Of a DNA stretch of 64,000 nt, positions 8,385-20,034 are shown piece by piece. Position numbers and translations under genes: made by a program. The number at the start of each line of letters is the position of its first letter. The stretch's first letter is position 1. The notes under the pieces were generated by a model. That model searched no databases and was not told the DNA's origin. It saw nothing but the letters and a program-made list of their open reading frames with translations. The stretch is from Hydrogenimonas cancrithermarum. GTDB taxonomy: Bacteria; Campylobacterota; Campylobacteria; Campylobacterales; Hydrogenimonadaceae. The stretch covers positions 1,476,501 through 1,540,500 of the forward strand of contig NZ_AP027370.1 in assembly GCF_030296055.1 (NCBI RefSeq). Reading direction: 5' to 3'.

Positions 8385-10334
8385 ATGTACATTCCAGAAT
8401 TTATACGAAAGATGCGTCTTTCCGTCATGTTTTCCATATTGATCGCCGGTGCTATGGTCGCGATTTCCACGGTTGTATACTGGTATCAGTTCGAAGAGAA
8501 CAAAAAATCACTGGAGAGAAACCTCTATAGCGAAGCCACGACCGTTCTAAACTTCGCGGATGTCCTCCTGCAGAGCCGGAACGAGAAGTTCTTTTCCGGC
8601 GATTCGGAGGAGGTCCCGCAAGTCATTCAGAACGAGATCTTCGACAAGTTCACGAAAGTGAGTAACGGTAAGGTTTTTTTCAAAGAGGCATCCAAAAAAC
8701 CGATGGACCCAAAAAACAGGGCCCTTCCGTTCGAAGCGGAGGTTATCGACTATTTTCAGGCACATAAAGATCAAAAAGAGCACACGATGAATGTGGAACT
8801 GGACGGAAAAGAGTATTTCATGCTTTCTCGCCCGATGATCGCCGAAAAGCGTTGCAAGCTCTGCCACCCGACATGGACACCGGGCGATATAATCGCGATA
8901 GAGGCGGTGCGTATCGATCTGAGCGATTACAAGCAGGCGCTCCAGGGCAACATTCTCTTCTCTTTTCTCAACTGGTTCGTCAATATCACGGTGGTTTTGC
9001 TGATCATCCACCTTCTCTTCAAAAAGTTGATTGCGAAACGGCTTGAAAAACTTCTGCAGATTTTCCAGCGCGTAGAAAAAGGGACATTCATTATCGACGA
9101 TATTTTGGGAGAGGATGCGCATATCGACGAGAAGAGTAAAAACGAGATCGACCAGCTCTTCAGACATCTTAAAAAGATGGTGGATGTTCTTCGGCCTGTC
9201 ATCGCGAAAGTGGTAAGGCAGTCGAAAAATGTCGCTTTCGAGGCATCCTACGGTTTGATGCGCCTGAAGGCGTCGAACGAGTATGTGATGGAGCAGACTG
9301 CAGAGGTCGAAAAAGTCGCGGACAATCTCAGGGAGATTGGTGAGATGAACCAGGCGCTCAATCGGCAGCTCGACGAGCTGGTGACCCATGTCGACCAATC
9401 GGTCAAACTGATCGGCAGTGGACAGGAGCAGATGCTGGAGAACGAGAAAGAGACGGTGAAAGCGTCGGAAGCGCTCGAAAATACGATCCGGGCGATCGAA
9501 GAGCTCAAAGGGTTTTCCCAAAATGTCTCCCGGACGATCGAACTTATTTCCGACATTGCGGATGAGACCAATCTGATCGCACTCAATGCCGCTATCGAAG
9601 CGGCACGTGCCGGTGAACACGGCCGGGGATTTGCCGTAGTGGCCGAAAAGGTAAGGGAGTTGGCGGAAGTGTCGATGGAGAATGCCCAGAACACTCGCCA
9701 GATCATCCGTTCGATGGTGGAGAATATCGAAAGTGTGGTAAGAAGCGCCACCCATACGAAATCTTTTTTCGAGCGTCTGCAGGAGAGTTCGGTACGCGTG
9801 GGAGACTACTTTACGCAGATCGCGTCGACACAGGAACAGACGATTGGAACGATGCGCCATTTCGGCGAAGAGTTCGAGCGGGAATTCCATGCCTTTTCTT
9901 CGATTCTCGAGCGGCTCGACGATGTGACGCATGGCAACGAAAAAATCCTCAAGAGTACGAAAAATGTGGAATCGGTCATGACGATGATTTCGGAAGAGAG
10001 TGCGGAGCTCAAGGTGCTGAGCGACGGGTTCGAAACGGTTACGAACCACAGGGCGATGCCACGGACCATCGTTTCGCCGCCACTGAAAGCCATGCTCGAG
10101 TTCGAGAATGGAACGACCGAAGAGGGATACATTTTCGACATTTCGAAAAACGGCATTTCGTTTTACGGGATCGATCCGAAGCAGCGGTGCAGCAGGGCGG
10201 ATTTGAGCGGTGCAAAAGGGGTTGCACGGCCTGAGGTTCCGATCGACGGTGTTGCATCGATCCGTTTCGAAATCGTTTACCAGAGCGAGCCGAAATTCGA
10301 CGGTATCCGCTTTTGCGGCGCGAAAAGAATCTAA
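8385..10334 (+). CDS. Methyl-accepting chemotaxis protein with CxxCH haem site and C-terminal PilZ domain
   Basis: 649-residue transmembrane chemoreceptor. TM1 spans about residues 13-34 and TM2 about 192-213, so 35-191 is periplasmic. That domain ends with C157-K-L-C160-H161, a c-type haem attachment motif placed as in Tll0287/DUF3365-like sensors. The cytoplasmic part is a HAMP-like segment, a coiled coil and the conserved receptor tip (about 390-428, with [20 protein letters not shown]). The C-terminus (about 553-645) carries R556-x3-R560 and D585-x-S-x2-G590, the two c-di-GMP-binding motifs of PilZ. It would therefore sense redox, oxygen or a haem ligand outside and c-di-GMP inside, signalling through CheA/CheW. 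No che genes are in view. It converges with purN, overlapping by 4 bases. Confidence 0.9.
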
Positions 10335-13034: not shown

Positions 13035-14288
13035 ATGCATTTTCCGGCCCCTTTGAAATCGAATTCCGTGAAGATTATGCTGCTTGGAAGCGGCGAGCTG
13101 GGCAAAGAGGTGGCGATCGAAGCGCAGCGTCTCGGTATCGAGGTCGTAGCGGTCGATCGCTATGCCAATGCCCCGGCGCATCAGGTGGCGCATGAAGCGC
13201 ATGTGATCGATATGCAGAACAAAGATGAGGTACTCGACCTTATCCGTCGGGTCAACCCGACCTATATTTTGCCCGAGATCGAGGCAATCAGCATCGATGC
13301 CCTTTTTGAAGCGGAAAAAGAGGGGTTTCATGTCATTCCCAACGCCGAGGCGGTCAACAAGACGATGAATCGTAAAAACATCCGGAAATTCGCCGCTGAA
13401 GAGTTGGGGCTCAAAACCAGTGCCTACCGCTTCGTTTCGACCTTCGAAGCGCTCAGAGAGGCTGCGGAAGCGATAGGATATCCCTGTGTCGTCAAGCCGG
13501 TCATGAGTTCGTCGGGTCACGGTCAGAGCATCGCGAGAACGCCCGAAGATCTGGAAAAATCATGGGAGATCGCCAAAGAGGCGCGCGGTGACGCGAGTGA
13601 GCTGATTGTCGAGGAGTTCGTTCGGTTCGATTACGAAATCACGCTTCTTACGGCACGTAATGAAAAAGAGACGGTCTTTTGCGAGCCGATCGGCCATGAG
13701 CAGAAAGATGGTGACTATATCTTTAGCTGGCAGCCGGCGTTTATGAGTCCCGAAGCCTTGTCAAAAGCACAGACCATCGCCAAAAAGGTGACAGACGGAC
13801 TGGGTGGCCGTGGTATCTTCGGCGTCGAGCTTTTCGTCAAAGGCGACGAAGTCTACTTCAGCGAAGTGAGTCCACGTCCGCACGATACGGGGATGGTGAC
13901 GCTCATCACCCAGAGTCAGAGCGAGTTCGCGCTGCATCTTCGCGCCGTACTCGGTCTGCCGCTGGAGTTTACCTTTTTCACGCCAGGTGCGAGTGCCGCT
14001 TACAAAGCCAAAAACGAGAGTGTCACACCGATCGTTCATGTCGACGACAAAGCGTTTTCGAAAGATTCGTTCGTTCGTATTTTCGGAAAACCGGAAAGCC
14101 ATGAGGGGCGCCGTATGGCCGTCTTGCTGACGATGGCCGCAAGCGAGACGGAAGCGCTCGCCAAAGCGAAAGAGCGTATCGGCTATCTCGACGATTCGGC
14201 GCCGGTGACCAGGGTCGTGGAGGAGCATCGTGTGGAGTCGGAAGAGAGCTGTGTCATCAAAAAAGTTTTCAAGTTCATCTTCGGCTGA
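13035..14288 (+). CDS. purT: Formate-dependent phosphoribosylglycinamide formyltransferase
   Basis: ATP-grasp enzyme that makes formyl-GAR from formate, ATP and GAR. 417 residues, against about 392 in E. coli. The N-terminal pre-ATP-grasp region has [21 protein letters not shown]. The ATP-grasp core includes [15 protein letters not shown] (about 155-169) and [23 protein letters not shown], the metal-binding E...E/N-type motif. It leads a compact run with the YjbQ-like gene and a periplasmic protein. It makes purN redundant when formate is available. Confidence 0.95.
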
Positions 14289-14289
14289 T

Positions 14290-14721
14290 ATGATGCAGAT
14301 GGTTCAGGTGCCCATCACGCTGGTACACAAGCCGCGGGGTGTGCATCTCGTCACCCACGAAATTGTCTCGCAGCTGCCGCAGATCGGAGCGTTTGAGACG
14401 GGACTGCTTCACCTTTTTCTTCAGCACACGAGTGCGGCGCTCGCGATCAATGAAAATGCAGACCCCGATGTACGGCGGGACACCGAAACTTTCATCGATG
14501 AGCTGATTCCCGAAAGTTATCCGAAATTCACCCATCTTCTTGAAGGGAGGGACGACATGCCGGCTCATCTGAAGTCGATGCTTTTCGGCTGCCAGTTGAC
14601 GATACCCCTTTCGGGCGGAACGCTCGCACTTGGTACCTGGCAGGGGATCTATCTGATAGAGGCGAGAAACCATGGGGGAAGCCGACGTCTTGTCGCGACA
14701 CTTCAGGGCAACATGATATAA
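14290..14721 (+). CDS. YjbQ/UPF0047 family protein
   Basis: 143-residue protein of the YjbQ family, trimeric beta-sandwich proteins with a putative metal site; weak thiamin-phosphate-synthase activity has been reported for some members, but the true role is unsettled. Conserved parts visible are LFLQHTSAALAINENADPDV, DDMPAHLKSML and GTWQGIYLIEARNHGGSRRL. The start is set at ATG 14290 (14293 also possible), one base after the purT stop; the frame further upstream overlaps purT and is not coding. Confidence 0.88.
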   Translation: MMQMVQVPITLVHKPRGVHLVTHEIVSQLPQIGAFETGLLHLFLQHTSAALAINENADPDVRRDTETFIDELIPESYPKFTHLLEGRDDMPAHLKSMLFGCQLTIPLSGGTLALGTWQGIYLIEARNHGGSRRLVATLQGNMI

Positions 14722-15086
14722 TGAATATCATGAAACGATTGTTTGTACCTTTATGCTTGATGTTCGGAGTCTATCTTGGGGCGGCAGATGTGCAGTGCCG
14801 AGTCGAAAACGAACGTATCTACTGCATCTACTCTCTGGACCGTTCGGATAATCAGAACGGCAAAAATGTGAAGTTCCACTGGATCTCTCCAACCTCTCCC
14901 GAAGACGACCGTATTCGCCATTTTCAGATTCCACCCCTTTACGGCTCTGTCTACGACTATCGCTTTCTGCCCGGCCGTGCCGAAGGAAGATGGCATGTCG
15001 AAGTGATCGATCTCGAGACCAATGAGACGGTCGAGACGACATTCGATATCAATGCGACCGACAATTCGATGTTTGAAGAGGATTGA
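14721..15086 (+). CDS. Putative periplasmic protein of unknown function
   Basis: 121 residues, not recognised. The N-terminus has a signal peptide (MKRLFVPLCLMFGVYLGAAD, cleavage probably after AA). The mature part has two cysteines close to its start (VQC and IYC) and beta-type composition, with no catalytic motif. Its ATG overlaps the stop of the YjbQ-like gene in TAATG, implying coupling. It converges with rnhB, 4 bases apart. Confidence 0.7.
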   Translation: MNIMKRLFVPLCLMFGVYLGAADVQCRVENERIYCIYSLDRSDNQNGKNVKFHWISPTSPEDDRIRHFQIPPLYGSVYDYRFLPGRAEGRWHVEVIDLETNETVETTFDINATDNSMFEED

Positions 15087-15090
15087 TATG

Positions 15091-15645
15091 TTAGAACAGA
15101 CTCGGTTGTTCCAGTGATTTGATCCTGAAGCTTTTACGGTGAATAGGCGAATAGCCGTTTTTTCTAATCGCTTCGATGTGTGCTTTGGTACCGTACCCTT
15201 TGTGTTTTTCGAAGCCGTACTCCGGATAGTTTTTCCCCATTTCGATCATGATTCGGTCGCGTGTCACTTTGGCGAGGATACTGGCTGCACTCACTTCCGC
15301 GATGTCGACGTCGGCTTTTATCTGAGAGCGCAAGCCCTGTATGCCGAAGGTAGTGTTGCCGTCGAAGAGATAGCCGTCGGCACTCAGCGTCAGCATGATC
15401 TCTTTCAAACCACAGATGAGACAGGCGCTGATCCCTTGCTCATCGATCACGGCGGCATCGAATATGACGATATGATACGCTGCATCCTTGGTTATCGTTT
15501 CATAGAGTTGCTCCCGGCGCTTTTCGGTAAGCTGCTTGGAGTCCGTCAGTCCGTCGATTGGCTCGTAGAGAACGACGCCGGCCATCACCAGTGGTCCTGC
15601 GAGGGGGCCGCGCCCCGCTTCGTCGATTCCGCATAGATTTTTCAT
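15091..15645 (-). CDS. rnhB: Ribonuclease HII
   Basis: Cleaves RNA in RNA-DNA hybrids and removes ribonucleotides from DNA. 184 residues. The hallmark GIDEAGRGPLAGP (about 6-18) holds the D-E metal ligands, with further acids at LTDSKQL and the VDIAEVSAASILAKVTRD region. ATG 15645 is chosen because MKNLCGIDEAGRG is the family N-terminus; a longer frame upstream crosses into the divergent lipoprotein gene. Confidence 0.95.
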   Translation of the reverse strand: MKNLCGIDEAGRGPLAGPLVMAGVVLYEPIDGLTDSKQLTEKRREQLYETITKDAAYHIVIFDAAVIDEQGISACLICGLKEIMLTLSADGYLFDGNTTFGIQGLRSQIKADVDIAEVSAASILAKVTRDRIMIEMGKNYPEYGFEKHKGYGTKAHIEAIRKNGYSPIHRKSFRIKSLEQPSLF

Positions 15646-15679
15646 GTTAGAATGATAACGATAGTGAGCTGAAAGGAAT

Positions 15680-16093
15680 ATGCGTATGACAAGGTTTTGG
15701 ATTCTGCCGCTGCTGATACTCGTCTGGTCGGGCTGCGGCGAAAAACCGGTCACGAAAATCTACGAAGCTGCCAGATTGAAGCCGATTGCCTGCATGCGTC
15801 TCGATATCTATCCGGCAAGTCCCGAAATGGAACGGATGATGCGGAAACTATACCCTTTCAACAAGAGGTGTGACACGGTTTTGGAAGTGAGGCACAAAGA
15901 GAATATCTGCTGCAACAGCAACCAGAACGCTGCCCGCAAAGCGTTGTCGGCCTTTCCTCACCATTTCCTTCGACTGGAGGTTCGGCGTGGATTGACACCG
16001 CTCTACAGCTATTACATCGATCTACAGCATCGGGCCGACGAAGAGGATCTGCGCGAAGCATTCGCGAGATTGAAGAAAGATTTGGGATTTTAA
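15680..16093 (+). CDS. Putative lipoprotein of unknown function
   Basis: 137 residues. The signal peptide ends in the lipobox LVWSGC with the lipidated cysteine at about residue 19. The mature part has four more cysteines (IACM, KRCD, NICCN), suggesting disulfides in the envelope. No known domain is recognised. The ATG at 15680 follows AAAGGAAT and is divergent from rnhB by 34 bases. It converges with the ATPase gene. Confidence 0.75.
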   Translation: MRMTRFWILPLLILVWSGCGEKPVTKIYEAARLKPIACMRLDIYPASPEMERMMRKLYPFNKRCDTVLEVRHKENICCNSNQNAARKALSAFPHHFLRLEVRRGLTPLYSYYIDLQHRADEEDLREAFARLKKDLGF

Positions 16094-16105
16094 AGATCCA
16101 CTCTA

Positions 16106-17179
16106 TTACTCCCCTACCATCCAGGCATAGAACGGCACCGCTTTCACCTCTATCTCTTCAAACATGAATTCGAATGCGTTGGCGATGGTCAATATGGTGA
16201 TCTGCCGAATACCCAAAACATCGATTTCGTTGACAAGTTTCGCGATTTTCGCTGCAGAACTTTCCGGATTGGCGAATGGTGAGAGGAGAATGGCGTGGCG
16301 TGTTGCCGGCATGAAAAAATCGATTTTGTCGGTAAAAGTGGCTTGTGGGCAGCATTGTCTGATCTTGATGGCGGCAATCGAGTAGAGCTGACCCATGAGA
16401 GACTTTTCGAAATAGAGCGAAGCCGGCAACGCGAAGTCGTAGATCAGCAGTCGTCTGGCCGCTTTGGGCTGGTTGTGCTTTTCGACCCAACCGACGATCC
16501 GGCGTGCCTCCCACTCCCTGAGAGTTTTGTAAAGCCAGTCTTTGGAGATTTTGTACTCTTTTTTGATCGCGGTGTAGAGCTGATGCGCCGTGACAGGCTT
16601 TCCGAGAAAACGTGAGAGGTGTCGAAAGAGAAGCTGTTCGCTTTGCGTAGGGAAAATGGCGCGTATGTGGCTGTGCAACTGTCGGGTCAACAGTGATTCG
16701 TGTACCGAAGCCATGGCCGGAAGAGATCCTGTTCGAAGGTAAAGAGAGAAGGAGTGCTCGAGGTGGACGTGCCTCTTTTCAAAGGCAAGATACTCTTCGA
16801 AATCGAGTGTCCGGAGTTCAAGTGCGGGCATGACCGGGGTGTCGTCGAGTTGGGCCTGGGTAACGAGAATGGACTGCCTGCACAACGGCGGCGCGAATGA
16901 GCCGTCGTAGTGGTCGATGACGACGGTTTCGATGCCGTTCGCTTCGATAAAAAGATTCATCTCTCTGACAAGAGAATCCTTGTTTATGCGCAGGTCGTCC
17001 ATATCGATGTAAAGATGCCGCTGTTTCGGAATACGGGCAAGGTAGTCGAGAACCAGCCATGTTTTTCCACAGTGCGGTGGCCCGAAAAGATTGAAACTGT
17101 GTGAAGGGAGCGACATTTTCCGTTCGGTGAATCCGACTGGTTTGGGTGTCGACTCGTAAAAGGCTTCCAACTGTTGCAT
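16106..17179 (-). CDS. AAA-type ATPase with DUF4143-like C-terminal domain
   Basis: 357 residues. Walker A FGPPHCGKTW lies near residue 29-37, a Walker B-like strand in RHLYIDMDDL and another in ETVVIDHYDG. A winged-helix-like part follows (about 200-270, ISKDWLYKTLREWEARRIVGWVEK). The C-terminal domain has the layout of the PD-(D/E)XK-like module of such ATPases (TDKIDFFMP, then ILLSPF), but the usual acidic and lysine catalytic residues look replaced. The family is widespread, often horizontally spread, and of unclear role. ATG 17179 has GGAG at good spacing; longer forms enter the rpsJ promoter region. Confidence 0.75.
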   Translation of the reverse strand: MQQLEAFYESTPKPVGFTERKMSLPSHSFNLFGPPHCGKTWLVLDYLARIPKQRHLYIDMDDLRINKDSLVREMNLFIEANGIETVVIDHYDGSFAPPLCRQSILVTQAQLDDTPVMPALELRTLDFEEYLAFEKRHVHLEHSFSLYLRTGSLPAMASVHESLLTRQLHSHIRAIFPTQSEQLLFRHLSRFLGKPVTAHQLYTAIKKEYKISKDWLYKTLREWEARRIVGWVEKHNQPKAARRLLIYDFALPASLYFEKSLMGQLYSIAAIKIRQCCPQATFTDKIDFFMPATRHAILLSPFANPESSAAKIAKLVNEIDVLGIRQITILTIANAFEFMFEEIEVKAVPFYAWMVGE

Positions 17180-17304
17180 GAAAAACTCCAATGAGATCGT
17201 TCGTCGTCGAAACAGAGCCGTGCTTCGATTTTTTAAATGACATACATTTCCTTTGAAAAAGGAAACAAATTTCCAAAAGTATAGCAGAAAAACCCCGCAA
17301 ATCG

Positions 17305-17333
17305 TTGATTTTGAGAGAAGTTTTATGTATAAT
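17305..17333 (+). promoter_or_regulatory. Promoter of the S10-spc ribosomal protein cluster
   Basis: TTGATT (17305-17310), a 17-base spacer ending in TG, and TATAAT (17328-17333), placed 66 bases before rpsJ. Spacing and the extended -10 are ideal. I see no strong hairpin in the short leader, so classical L4 autoregulation is not evident. Confidence 0.75.
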
Positions 17334-17399
17334 CTTGGCTCCAAAAAGCGTTGGTGGGTGCAAATCCAAATACCAACAAGTTCTTTTAAGGGAAAACCT

Positions 17400-17717
17400 A
17401 TGGAAAAAATTCGACTTAAGCTCAAAGCGTACGATCATCGTGTGCTTGATCGGTCAGTTGCTGCAATCGTAGAAGCAGTCAAGCGAACGGGAGCCGAAAT
17501 ACGCGGCCCAATTCCTATGCCTACAAAGATCAGACGCTATACAGTGCTCAGATCACCTCACGTTAATAAAGATTCACGCGAACAATTCGAAATCAGAATT
17601 CACGGACGTATGATCGACATCGTCTCTGCAACGCCTGATACGGTCGATTCGTTGATGAAACTTGATCTGGCACCGGAAGTAGACGTCGAAGTACGATCTA
17701 TGGGTAACAAGGGGTAA
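17400..17717 (+). CDS. rpsJ: 30S ribosomal protein S10
   Basis: 105 residues, [19 protein letters not shown], containing the [19 protein letters not shown] region contacting 16S rRNA. It also acts as NusE in antitermination with NusB. The start at 17400 gives the family N-terminus; upstream codons in frame cover the promoter. First gene of an unbroken run to infA. Confidence 0.98.
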
Positions 17718-17720
17718 CGG

Positions 17721-18299
17721 ATGGAATTCATCGTAGAAAAAATCGGCATGAGCCGAACAATCAATGTACCGAGTATCCCTGTCACGCTTCTGAAAGTGCA
17801 GGATGTCAAAGTATGCGAGATCACGGAAGACGGTCGCGCTATCGTTGCCTACCCGAGCGGTAAGAAGCGCAACAAAGCGATCGAAGGTCAGCAGAAAAAG
17901 TATGGGTTGAGCCCTGAATACAACCGTTTCGCGACGCTGAAAGTCGCCAACACCGAAGCGGGCGATCTTGATTTGACACCGCTTAGCGAAGCGAAAAAAG
18001 TCAAAGTCACGTTCACCAGCAAAGGTCGCGGATTTTCAGGTGTTATGAAGCGATGGAACTTCGCGGGTGGCCCAAGAAGCCACGGTTCACGTTTCCACAG
18101 AGCACCGGGTTCAATCGGTAACTGTGAATGGCCTGGACGCGTACAGCCGGGACAGAAAATGCCTGGCCAGTACGGCAACGCGACAGTCACTGTAAAAAAT
18201 GAGATCGTATCGTTCGATCCGGAAAACAAGATCCTTGTCGTCAAGGGTGCGGTTCCGGGACCAAACGGTGCGATGGGTCGAGTAAGGATTTCTAAATGA
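17721..18299 (+). CDS. rplC: 50S ribosomal protein L3
   Basis: 192 residues, slightly shorter than the E. coli protein (209). The central loop [20 protein letters not shown] reaches the peptidyl transferase centre. It begins 3 bases after rpsJ; its stop overlaps the rplD start in ATGA. Confidence 0.98.
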
Positions 18300-18910
18300 G
18301 TACAGCAGTAGTTTTGAACGAAAACCTGGAAAAAGCGGGCGACGCTGAGGTTCCTGCGAGCTTTCTCGAAGCGAGCGCTCACAACCTATATCTATATGTC
18401 AAATCATATCAGGCTGCGCTGCGTGCCAACACGGCACACAGCAAAAACCGTTCTGCTGTCAGCGGCGGCGGTAAAAAGCCTTGGTCTCAAAAAGGACGCG
18501 GCGGCGCGCGTGCCGGTTCTATCCGAAGCCCGCTCTTCGTCGGCGGTGGTGCGGCATTTGGACCGAAAGCGAACCGAAACTATGACCAGAAGATCAACAA
18601 GAAGCAGAAGCGCCTGGCGCTGATGCACGCTTTGGCTGAAAAAGCGGCCAACGGCAAGCTCTACATTGTTGATAGTGTCGAAGTTGCAAGCGGCAAAACA
18701 AAAGACGCGGCAGCGATGATGAACAAACTGGGCGAGCGTGATGCTCTGTGGGTAAAGTCTCTGATCGACGACAAAACCTATATGGCATTTAGAAATCTTC
18801 CGAACTGTTATTTGATCGAAGAGAATGAACTCAACGGCTATCTTGCAGCAGCGTATCGCGCGGTTGTCATCGAGAAAGCGGTTTGGGAAAATCTGACGAA
18901 AGAGGGCTAA
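18296..18910 (+). CDS. rplD: 50S ribosomal protein L4
   Basis: 204 residues. The loop [19 protein letters not shown] (about 61-79) lines the peptide exit tunnel and is where macrolide-resistance changes arise; here it looks wild type. Its start overlaps rplC by 4 bases. Confidence 0.98.
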
Positions 18911-18911
18911 G

Positions 18912-19193
18912 ATGGCGGATATTACAGATATCAAATCGATACTTTATACTGAAAAGACATTGGGCCTTCAGGAAGAGGGTGTCATCGTGGTTCAGACATC
19001 TCCGAAAGTGACGAAGAATCAGCTCAAAGCGATCTTCAAAGAGTACTTCGGTGTGAACCCGTTGAAAGTCAACTCTCTCCGCCAGAGCGGTAAAGTGAAG
19101 CGTTTCCGCGGAAAAGAGGGGAAACGCCCGGATTTCAAAAAGTTCTATGTGAAGCTGCCGGAAGGCGCGAACATCGAGAGCTTGAGCGCGTAA
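18912..19193 (+). CDS. rplW: 50S ribosomal protein L23
   Basis: 93 residues; sits at the exit tunnel and is the docking site for trigger factor and SRP. The family segment [12 protein letters not shown] and the basic [17 protein letters not shown] tail are present. One base separates it from rplD. Confidence 0.97.
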
Positions 19194-19203
19194 GGGATAG
19201 AGC

Positions 19204-20034
19204 ATGGCAATTAAAACATATAAACCGTATACACCCAGCCGACGCTATATGAGCGTCGTCGACAGCAGCGACATCACGAGCAAACCGACGGTTCGCAAAC
19301 TGCTGAAGAAACTCCCTGCCAAAGCGGGACGCAACAACAACGGACGCATCACATCTCGCCACAAAGAGGCGGGCGCGAAGAAGCTTTATCGTATTATCGA
19401 CTTCAAACGCAACAAGTTCGGCGTTGAAGGTACCGTTGCGACGATCGAGTACGATCCGTACAGAAACTGCCGCATTTGCCTCATCAACTACGTTGACGGC
19501 GACAAGCGCTACATCCTTCAGCCGAGCGGTCTGAAAGTGGGCGACAAAGTTCAGGCGGCGGAAGCGGGTCTGGATATCAAACCGGGCAACGCGATGAAGC
19601 TGAAAAACATTCCGGTCGGTACACTTGTTCACAACATCGAGATGAAGCCGGGCAAAGGCGGACAGCTCGTCCGAAGCGCCGGAGGATATGCACAGATCAT
19701 GGGACGCGAAGGCAAATATGTCATCGTCCGTATGCCCAGCTCTGAAATGCGTAAAATCCTCGGTGAGTGTATGGCGACCATCGGTACCGTCGGCAACGAA
19801 GAGTTCGCGAACATCGTCATCGGTAAAGCGGGACGCAGCCGACACCTCGGTATCCGTCCTCAGACACGCGGTTCTGCGATGAACCCGGTCGATCACCCGC
19901 ACGGTGGTGGTGAAGGTAAAACGAACTCCGGACGTCATCCGGTCACACCTTGGGGTATGCCGACCAAAGGCTTTAAAACTCGTCGTAAAAAAGCCAGCGA
20001 TAAACTGATCATTTCACGACGCAAGAAAAAATAA
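19204..20034 (+). CDS. rplB: 50S ribosomal protein L2
   Basis: 276 residues. Needed for subunit joining and peptidyl transfer. The highly conserved [14 protein letters not shown] near the C-terminus contains the histidine linked to peptidyl transferase activity. The strong RNA-binding core [14 protein letters not shown] is also present. Confidence 0.98.

Follow-up and report, generated by a model that had tools for sequence, protein, structure and literature searches.

The gene at positions 8385-10334 of the window (the whole 64,000-nucleotide stretch of the Hydrogenimonas cancrithermarum chromosome that was analysed) raises the question of whether one chemoreceptor can join a haem-based sensor outside the cell to a c-di-GMP reader inside it. 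On balance, it is probable that the product is a two-input transmembrane receptor, with haem/NO sensing on the outside and a c-di-GMP-binding PilZ domain on the inside. A sequence-only reading of this DNA had described a single frame with a CxxCH site and a C-terminal R-x3-R and D-x-S-x2-G pair, in the order haem sensor, MCP signalling, PilZ. The frame is open over 649 codons (ORF check), the motifs all lie where that reading placed them, and both the domain calls and the overall architecture support the order. The features are as follows.

8385-10334, + strand: chemoreceptor gene (649 aa plus stop) with the order sCache_heme, HAMP, MCP signalling, PilZ
8409-8486, + strand: transmembrane helix 1, about residues 9-34 (hydropathy peak above 1.6, windows starting at 9-18)
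8487-8945, + strand: periplasmic Tll0287-like / sCache_heme sensor, about residues 35-187 (Pfam PF11845 on 66-163)
8853-8867, + strand: haem c attachment motif C157-K-L-C160-H161, invariant in the 18 homologous sensors aligned
8946-9038, + strand: transmembrane helix 2, about residues 188-218 (hydropathy peaks, windows starting at 188-200)
9024-9194, + strand: HAMP, residues 214-270 (Pfam PF00672)
9195-10019, + strand: MCP signalling hairpin, residues 271-545, with the tip at about 392-415 (Pfam PF00015 on 355-491)
9822-9851, + strand: putative methylation site, residues 480-489 (single consensus match by pattern scan)
10050-10331, + strand: PilZ domain, residues 556-649 (below Pfam detection in the window copy)
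10050-10064, + strand: PilZ RxxxR motif, R556-AMP-R560, invariant in homologues
10137-10154, + strand: PilZ [D/N]xSxxG motif, D585-I-S-K-N-G590, nearly invariant in homologues

The protein has the conserved domains PF00672 (HAMP; 27.0 bits, cut-off 25) and PF00015 (MCPsignal, residues 355-491; E-value: 4.5e-31, above the cut-off). Together with its transmembrane helices, these place it among the methyl-accepting chemotaxis proteins. A pattern scan finds the signalling tip (ADETN at residue 392 and GEHGRG at 410), a single CxxCH (157-161), a single [DN]x[SA]xxG (585-590) and two occurrences of RxxxR, one at 556-560 and the other at 438. Because two hydrophobic stretches flank the sensor, it is assigned to the periplasm, which is where c-type haem is attached.

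The sensor belongs to the Tll0287-like family PF11845 (E-value: 1.5e-12; 48.6 bits against a cut-off of 24.1), a score above the curated Pfam cut-off that bears out the earlier suggestion of a DUF3365/Tll0287-like domain. That reading had also looked to orthologues for conservation of the haem site, and all 18 sensors aligned do indeed share C157, C160 and H161. Identity to the window copy in this alignment is 56-79%, an unusually high level among sensors of chemoreceptors. Of the 23 PilZ-bearing homologues, 22 retain CxxCH. One PilZ-bearing homologue (L066, G158:C129) has a shortened sensor and has lost CxxCH while retaining PilZ. Haem c is predicted from the sequence to be covalently attached to the sensor. 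The AF2 model of this domain, built without haem, has a pLDDT of 91.7, and its three best PDB folds are the Cache domain of WalK, Tll0287 (5b82) and GSU0935 (3b42), at moderate TM-scores (0.36-0.53). A search of the sensor profile against PDB sequences gave no relevant match.

In GSU0935, Met60 is the sixth haem ligand in one protomer (PMC8396549). F69 of the receptor aligns with this residue in a weak sequence alignment to 3b42 (E-value: 0.21) in which the GSU0935 numbering is anchored on Cys140/Cys143/His144 (PMC8396549). Besides the haem motif, no Cys, Met or His is conserved in the sensors of the homologues examined. Because Met60 is replaced by F69 and no other such residue is conserved, the distal side of the haem is likely to be open or weakly ligated. 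K68, which adjoins the distal position, is invariant among the homologues and could act as a sixth ligand.

The sequence-only reading had listed redox potential, oxygen or NO as the signal, and this list can be narrowed in part. A signalling-fused domain from Pseudomonas azotoformans was characterised in a 2026 study; in signalling-fused sCache_heme without an axial Cys, NO binding is tight (koff 6.25e-4 per s), and the member tested forms no stable oxy complex, favouring NO over oxygen for signalling-fused domains (PMC12889525). One ORF of the H. cancrithermarum genome combines a cytochrome c domain with a cytochrome D1 domain, as in cd1 nitrite reductase, and NO is therefore expected in the periplasm. 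A NorB-like ORF adjoins the cd1 gene; it has no NCBIfam match, and a nitric oxide reductase is not claimed. NO appears to be the likeliest ligand of the receptor, since signalling-fused sCache_heme binds it, a Met or Cys sixth ligand is absent and a cd1-type protein is encoded.

Alternatively, the haem could report periplasmic redox potential through a change in spin or ligation, giving redox or oxygen/energy taxis, with PilZ still acting as a c-di-GMP tuner. Redox continues to be argued for the Geobacter relatives: GSU0582 and GSU0935 are interpreted as redox sensors, with potentials of -156 and -251 mV, and DcrA is interpreted as a redox/oxygen sensor (PMC8396549). In addition, Tlp1 and Aer of Azospirillum, which carry PilZ, mediate aerotaxis (PMC6406031). 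However, the replacement of the axial Met of GSU0935 by Phe and the ligand preference of the signalling-fused member (PMC12889525) both speak against this explanation, which is possible but doubtful.

NO sensing outside the cell would have its counterpart in c-di-GMP binding inside it, and here the identity of the C-terminal domain must be established. In the window copy, Pfam gives no PilZ match at E<=10 and NCBIfam no PilZ; PF07238 has no match at E<=1 over the whole genome. A glutaredoxin match in the window copy (E-value: 0.096) was set aside as noise. Profile search of this region, which the sequence-only reading had proposed as a check on its PilZ claim, is thus negative for the window copy alone, the outcome that would count against the claim, but positive for 11 of the 19 homologous tails scanned singly (best E-value: 6.2e-5). 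In a genome search, one orthologue (G116) exceeds the curated PilZ cut-off (23.0 against 22.5 bits). Three full-length homologues with the PilZ motif (L061, L065 and L059) gave no PilZ match at E<=0.001 when scanned whole. When the receptor tails are compared by hhalign with 13 clear PilZ domains from the order, the score is 95.0% (E-value: 4e-8) and both R-x3-R and D-x-S-x2-G line up; the sensor, used as a control, scores 0.3%. Neither phmmer nor hmmsearch matched the PilZ region to a PilZ sequence in the PDB, and fold comparison was therefore needed. The region in the window copy is predicted to form a barrel (pLDDT 79; Foldseek E-value: 1.9e-4), and nearly all of its 39 best PDB matches are PilZ proteins. 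The structural matches include BcsA, PP4397, PA0012, YcgR, MotI, VCA0042, MrkH, Alg44 and MapZ, and several of the matched structures carry bound c-di-GMP. The C-terminal domain is a PilZ domain, far beyond chance, and the original claim is confirmed through the homologues, hhalign and predicted fold.

Six further Hydrogenimonas genomes encode full-length orthologues, 65-76% identical to the receptor; in one more same-genus genome the orthologue is split between contigs. Within one order, Campylobacterales, the PilZ-bearing receptor spans six families, but only a minority (13/397) of the genomes sampled in the class gave a strong match. A scan of genome contigs with the single protein returned only a Hydrogenimonas MAG, whose copy is 76% identical, and an unrelated MCP, with no close relatives outside the order; the plasmid collection contains no relative of the PilZ domain. 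A 150-aa match (L069) was dropped for its dubious frame. A recurring PilZ protein of about 625-650 aa (L153, L146 and similar) is also present in the order and is not chemoreceptor-like; Pfam finds one in same-genus genomes, and none is shown in the window genome.

Five homologues with the same sensor stop just before the PilZ domain. These form one clade (support 100/100), such that a single gain or loss is needed on a tree whose root is not fixed. Both PilZ-bearing and PilZ-less receptors are encoded by genomes G038 and G233. Two PilZ-less copies adjoin purN, as does the window copy, and this shared position suggests that they are its positional counterparts. The existence of the clade suggests that PilZ is an add-on, a modulator without which the receptor could still work. 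A conserved operon was rejected, the receptor standing alone: its neighbours recur in part within the genus, and outside the genus only the purN side is common, with two PilZ-less copies in other families. Beside the receptor region, positions 13035-20034 of the window hold ordinary housekeeping genes: a purT-like gene, an rnhB-like gene and a ribosomal protein operon starting near 17400 (identified by reading translations).

Whether this PilZ domain still binds c-di-GMP is a separate matter. The domain is very divergent, and its affinity could be weak or lost; it might then serve as a dimer cap or as a tail on which other proteins dock, such as CheR/CheB or components of the motor. Its escape from Pfam in the window copy, the PilZ-less clade and its lower conservation than the sensor (26-70% identity, against 56-79%) would all fit such a role. 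Yet in the 19 aligned tails R15, R19, D44, S46 and G49, the five motif residues, account for five of only nine invariant columns while the remaining domain drifts. RxxxR is invariant in 19/19 tails and all 23 PilZ-bearing homologues, and [D/N]xSxxG in 19/19 and 22/23, respectively; all five residues are retained in 22 of the 23. Loss of binding is accordingly an unlikely explanation, and the retained residues argue that the domain probably binds c-di-GMP. The motif of one homologue (L161, G450:C1) reads D-A-N-D-R-G, with N replacing S, and a change in c-di-GMP binding is possible in that lineage. As for chance matches to the PilZ and CxxCH motifs in an ordinary chemoreceptor, the failure of Pfam to detect PilZ in the window copy or genome is outweighed by the homologue Pfam matches, hhalign score, fold match and motif invariance, which refute this reading and leave it practically no probability.

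Both halves of the receptor have precedents. DcrA of Desulfovibrio and GSU0582/GSU0935 of Geobacter are likewise chemoreceptors whose periplasmic part is a CxxCH-containing haem-c sensor of Cache/PAS-like type; however, no PilZ is reported for them, and GSU0935 has axial Met60 in place of Phe69. Tlp1 and Aer of Azospirillum brasilense and Cbp1 of Azorhizobium caulinodans share the MCP signalling region followed by a C-terminal PilZ, but their sensors differ: that of Tlp1 is periplasmic, that of Aer is a putative FAD-PAS and Cbp1 lacks a transmembrane region. A further difference is that the PilZ of the Hydrogenimonas receptor escapes Pfam. Binding of c-di-GMP has been shown for Tlp1 (PMC6406031) and Cbp1 (PMC6454048); in Azospirillum and Azorhizobium, chemoreceptors with PilZ use RxxxR to bind c-di-GMP and influence taxis (PMC6406031; PMC6454048). 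By analogy, it is plausible that c-di-GMP binding would link taxis to the swim/attach decision in Hydrogenimonas. Tll0287 (5b82) has the fold and haem motif of the sensor but is stand-alone, Cys/His ligated, redox-like and without signalling modules. YcgR, BcsA, PP4397 and VCA0042 have the fold and c-di-GMP motif of the PilZ domain but are not chemoreceptors and are 13-18% identical to it (structural alignment). Haem-c chemoreceptors and PilZ chemoreceptors are thus each established. In the freely accessible literature searched, no description was found of a haem-c sensor and PilZ in one chemoreceptor, nor any study of such haem receptors in vent-type bacteria, nor any experiment demonstrating that a member of this subfamily binds haem, NO or c-di-GMP. 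A 2026 survey of the sCache_heme family does not mention PilZ, and a 2026 aerotaxis review discusses PilZ receptors, none of them haem-c.

The genome has one CheV-CheA-CheW cluster as the chemotaxis core, with seven MCP signalling domains and 36 GGDEF matches, both counts being inflated by a 111-kb tandem duplication that contains, and so doubles, MCP and GGDEF genes. This exact duplication (loci L181-L193) lies outside the window at about 1108900-1332500 of the chromosome, with a period of 111,017 bases. Between 1109000 and 1220000, every 1-kb bin sampled recurs with 100% identity 111,017 bases further along, and the ends overlap by about 1.6 kb; it is either a recent duplication or an assembly artefact. 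A second sCache_heme protein is encoded at L165:1832-4417 (- strand; chromosome near 2286600-2288400). This protein has the haem motif CLRCH, a degenerate GGDEF domain (PADEF) and an EAL domain with intact EAL and DDFG motifs. Because the GGDEF domain is degenerate and the EAL motifs are intact, the protein probably acts as a phosphodiesterase. If gated by haem, such an enzyme and a haem-gated receptor that reads c-di-GMP could form a two-branch response, which is offered as a hypothesis only.

The mechanism proposed for the receptor would operate in four steps. Haem of the c type would be held on C157 and C160, with H161 as proximal ligand. Its open distal side would bind NO arising from the cell's own denitrification or from neighbours, and the state of the haem would depend on redox potential as well. 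Transmembrane helix 2 and HAMP would relay the resulting change to the MCP hairpin, altering CheA activity. PilZ, at the end of the hairpin, would bind c-di-GMP and change the gain or bias of the receptor, so that cells in the attach and swim states would answer the haem signal differently. Since the second sCache_heme protein carries an EAL domain, the same kind of signal may also shift the c-di-GMP level that PilZ reads. Tentatively, the receptors may form a family within the order that reads periplasmic NO via covalent haem and c-di-GMP via a PilZ domain missed by standard profiles, and that is partnered with an sCache_heme EAL phosphodiesterase of the same cell, so that NO would both alter c-di-GMP and steer swimming.

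PilZ tails on chemoreceptors escape routine Pfam annotation, and existing surveys therefore probably undercount the c-di-GMP-responsive receptors of this group. The PilZ-less relatives, two of which share a genome with a PilZ-bearing receptor, provide a natural comparison. If the proposed mechanism is correct, this one protein would offer a test of how a chemoreceptor sums an internal lifestyle signal and a gas or redox signal from outside.
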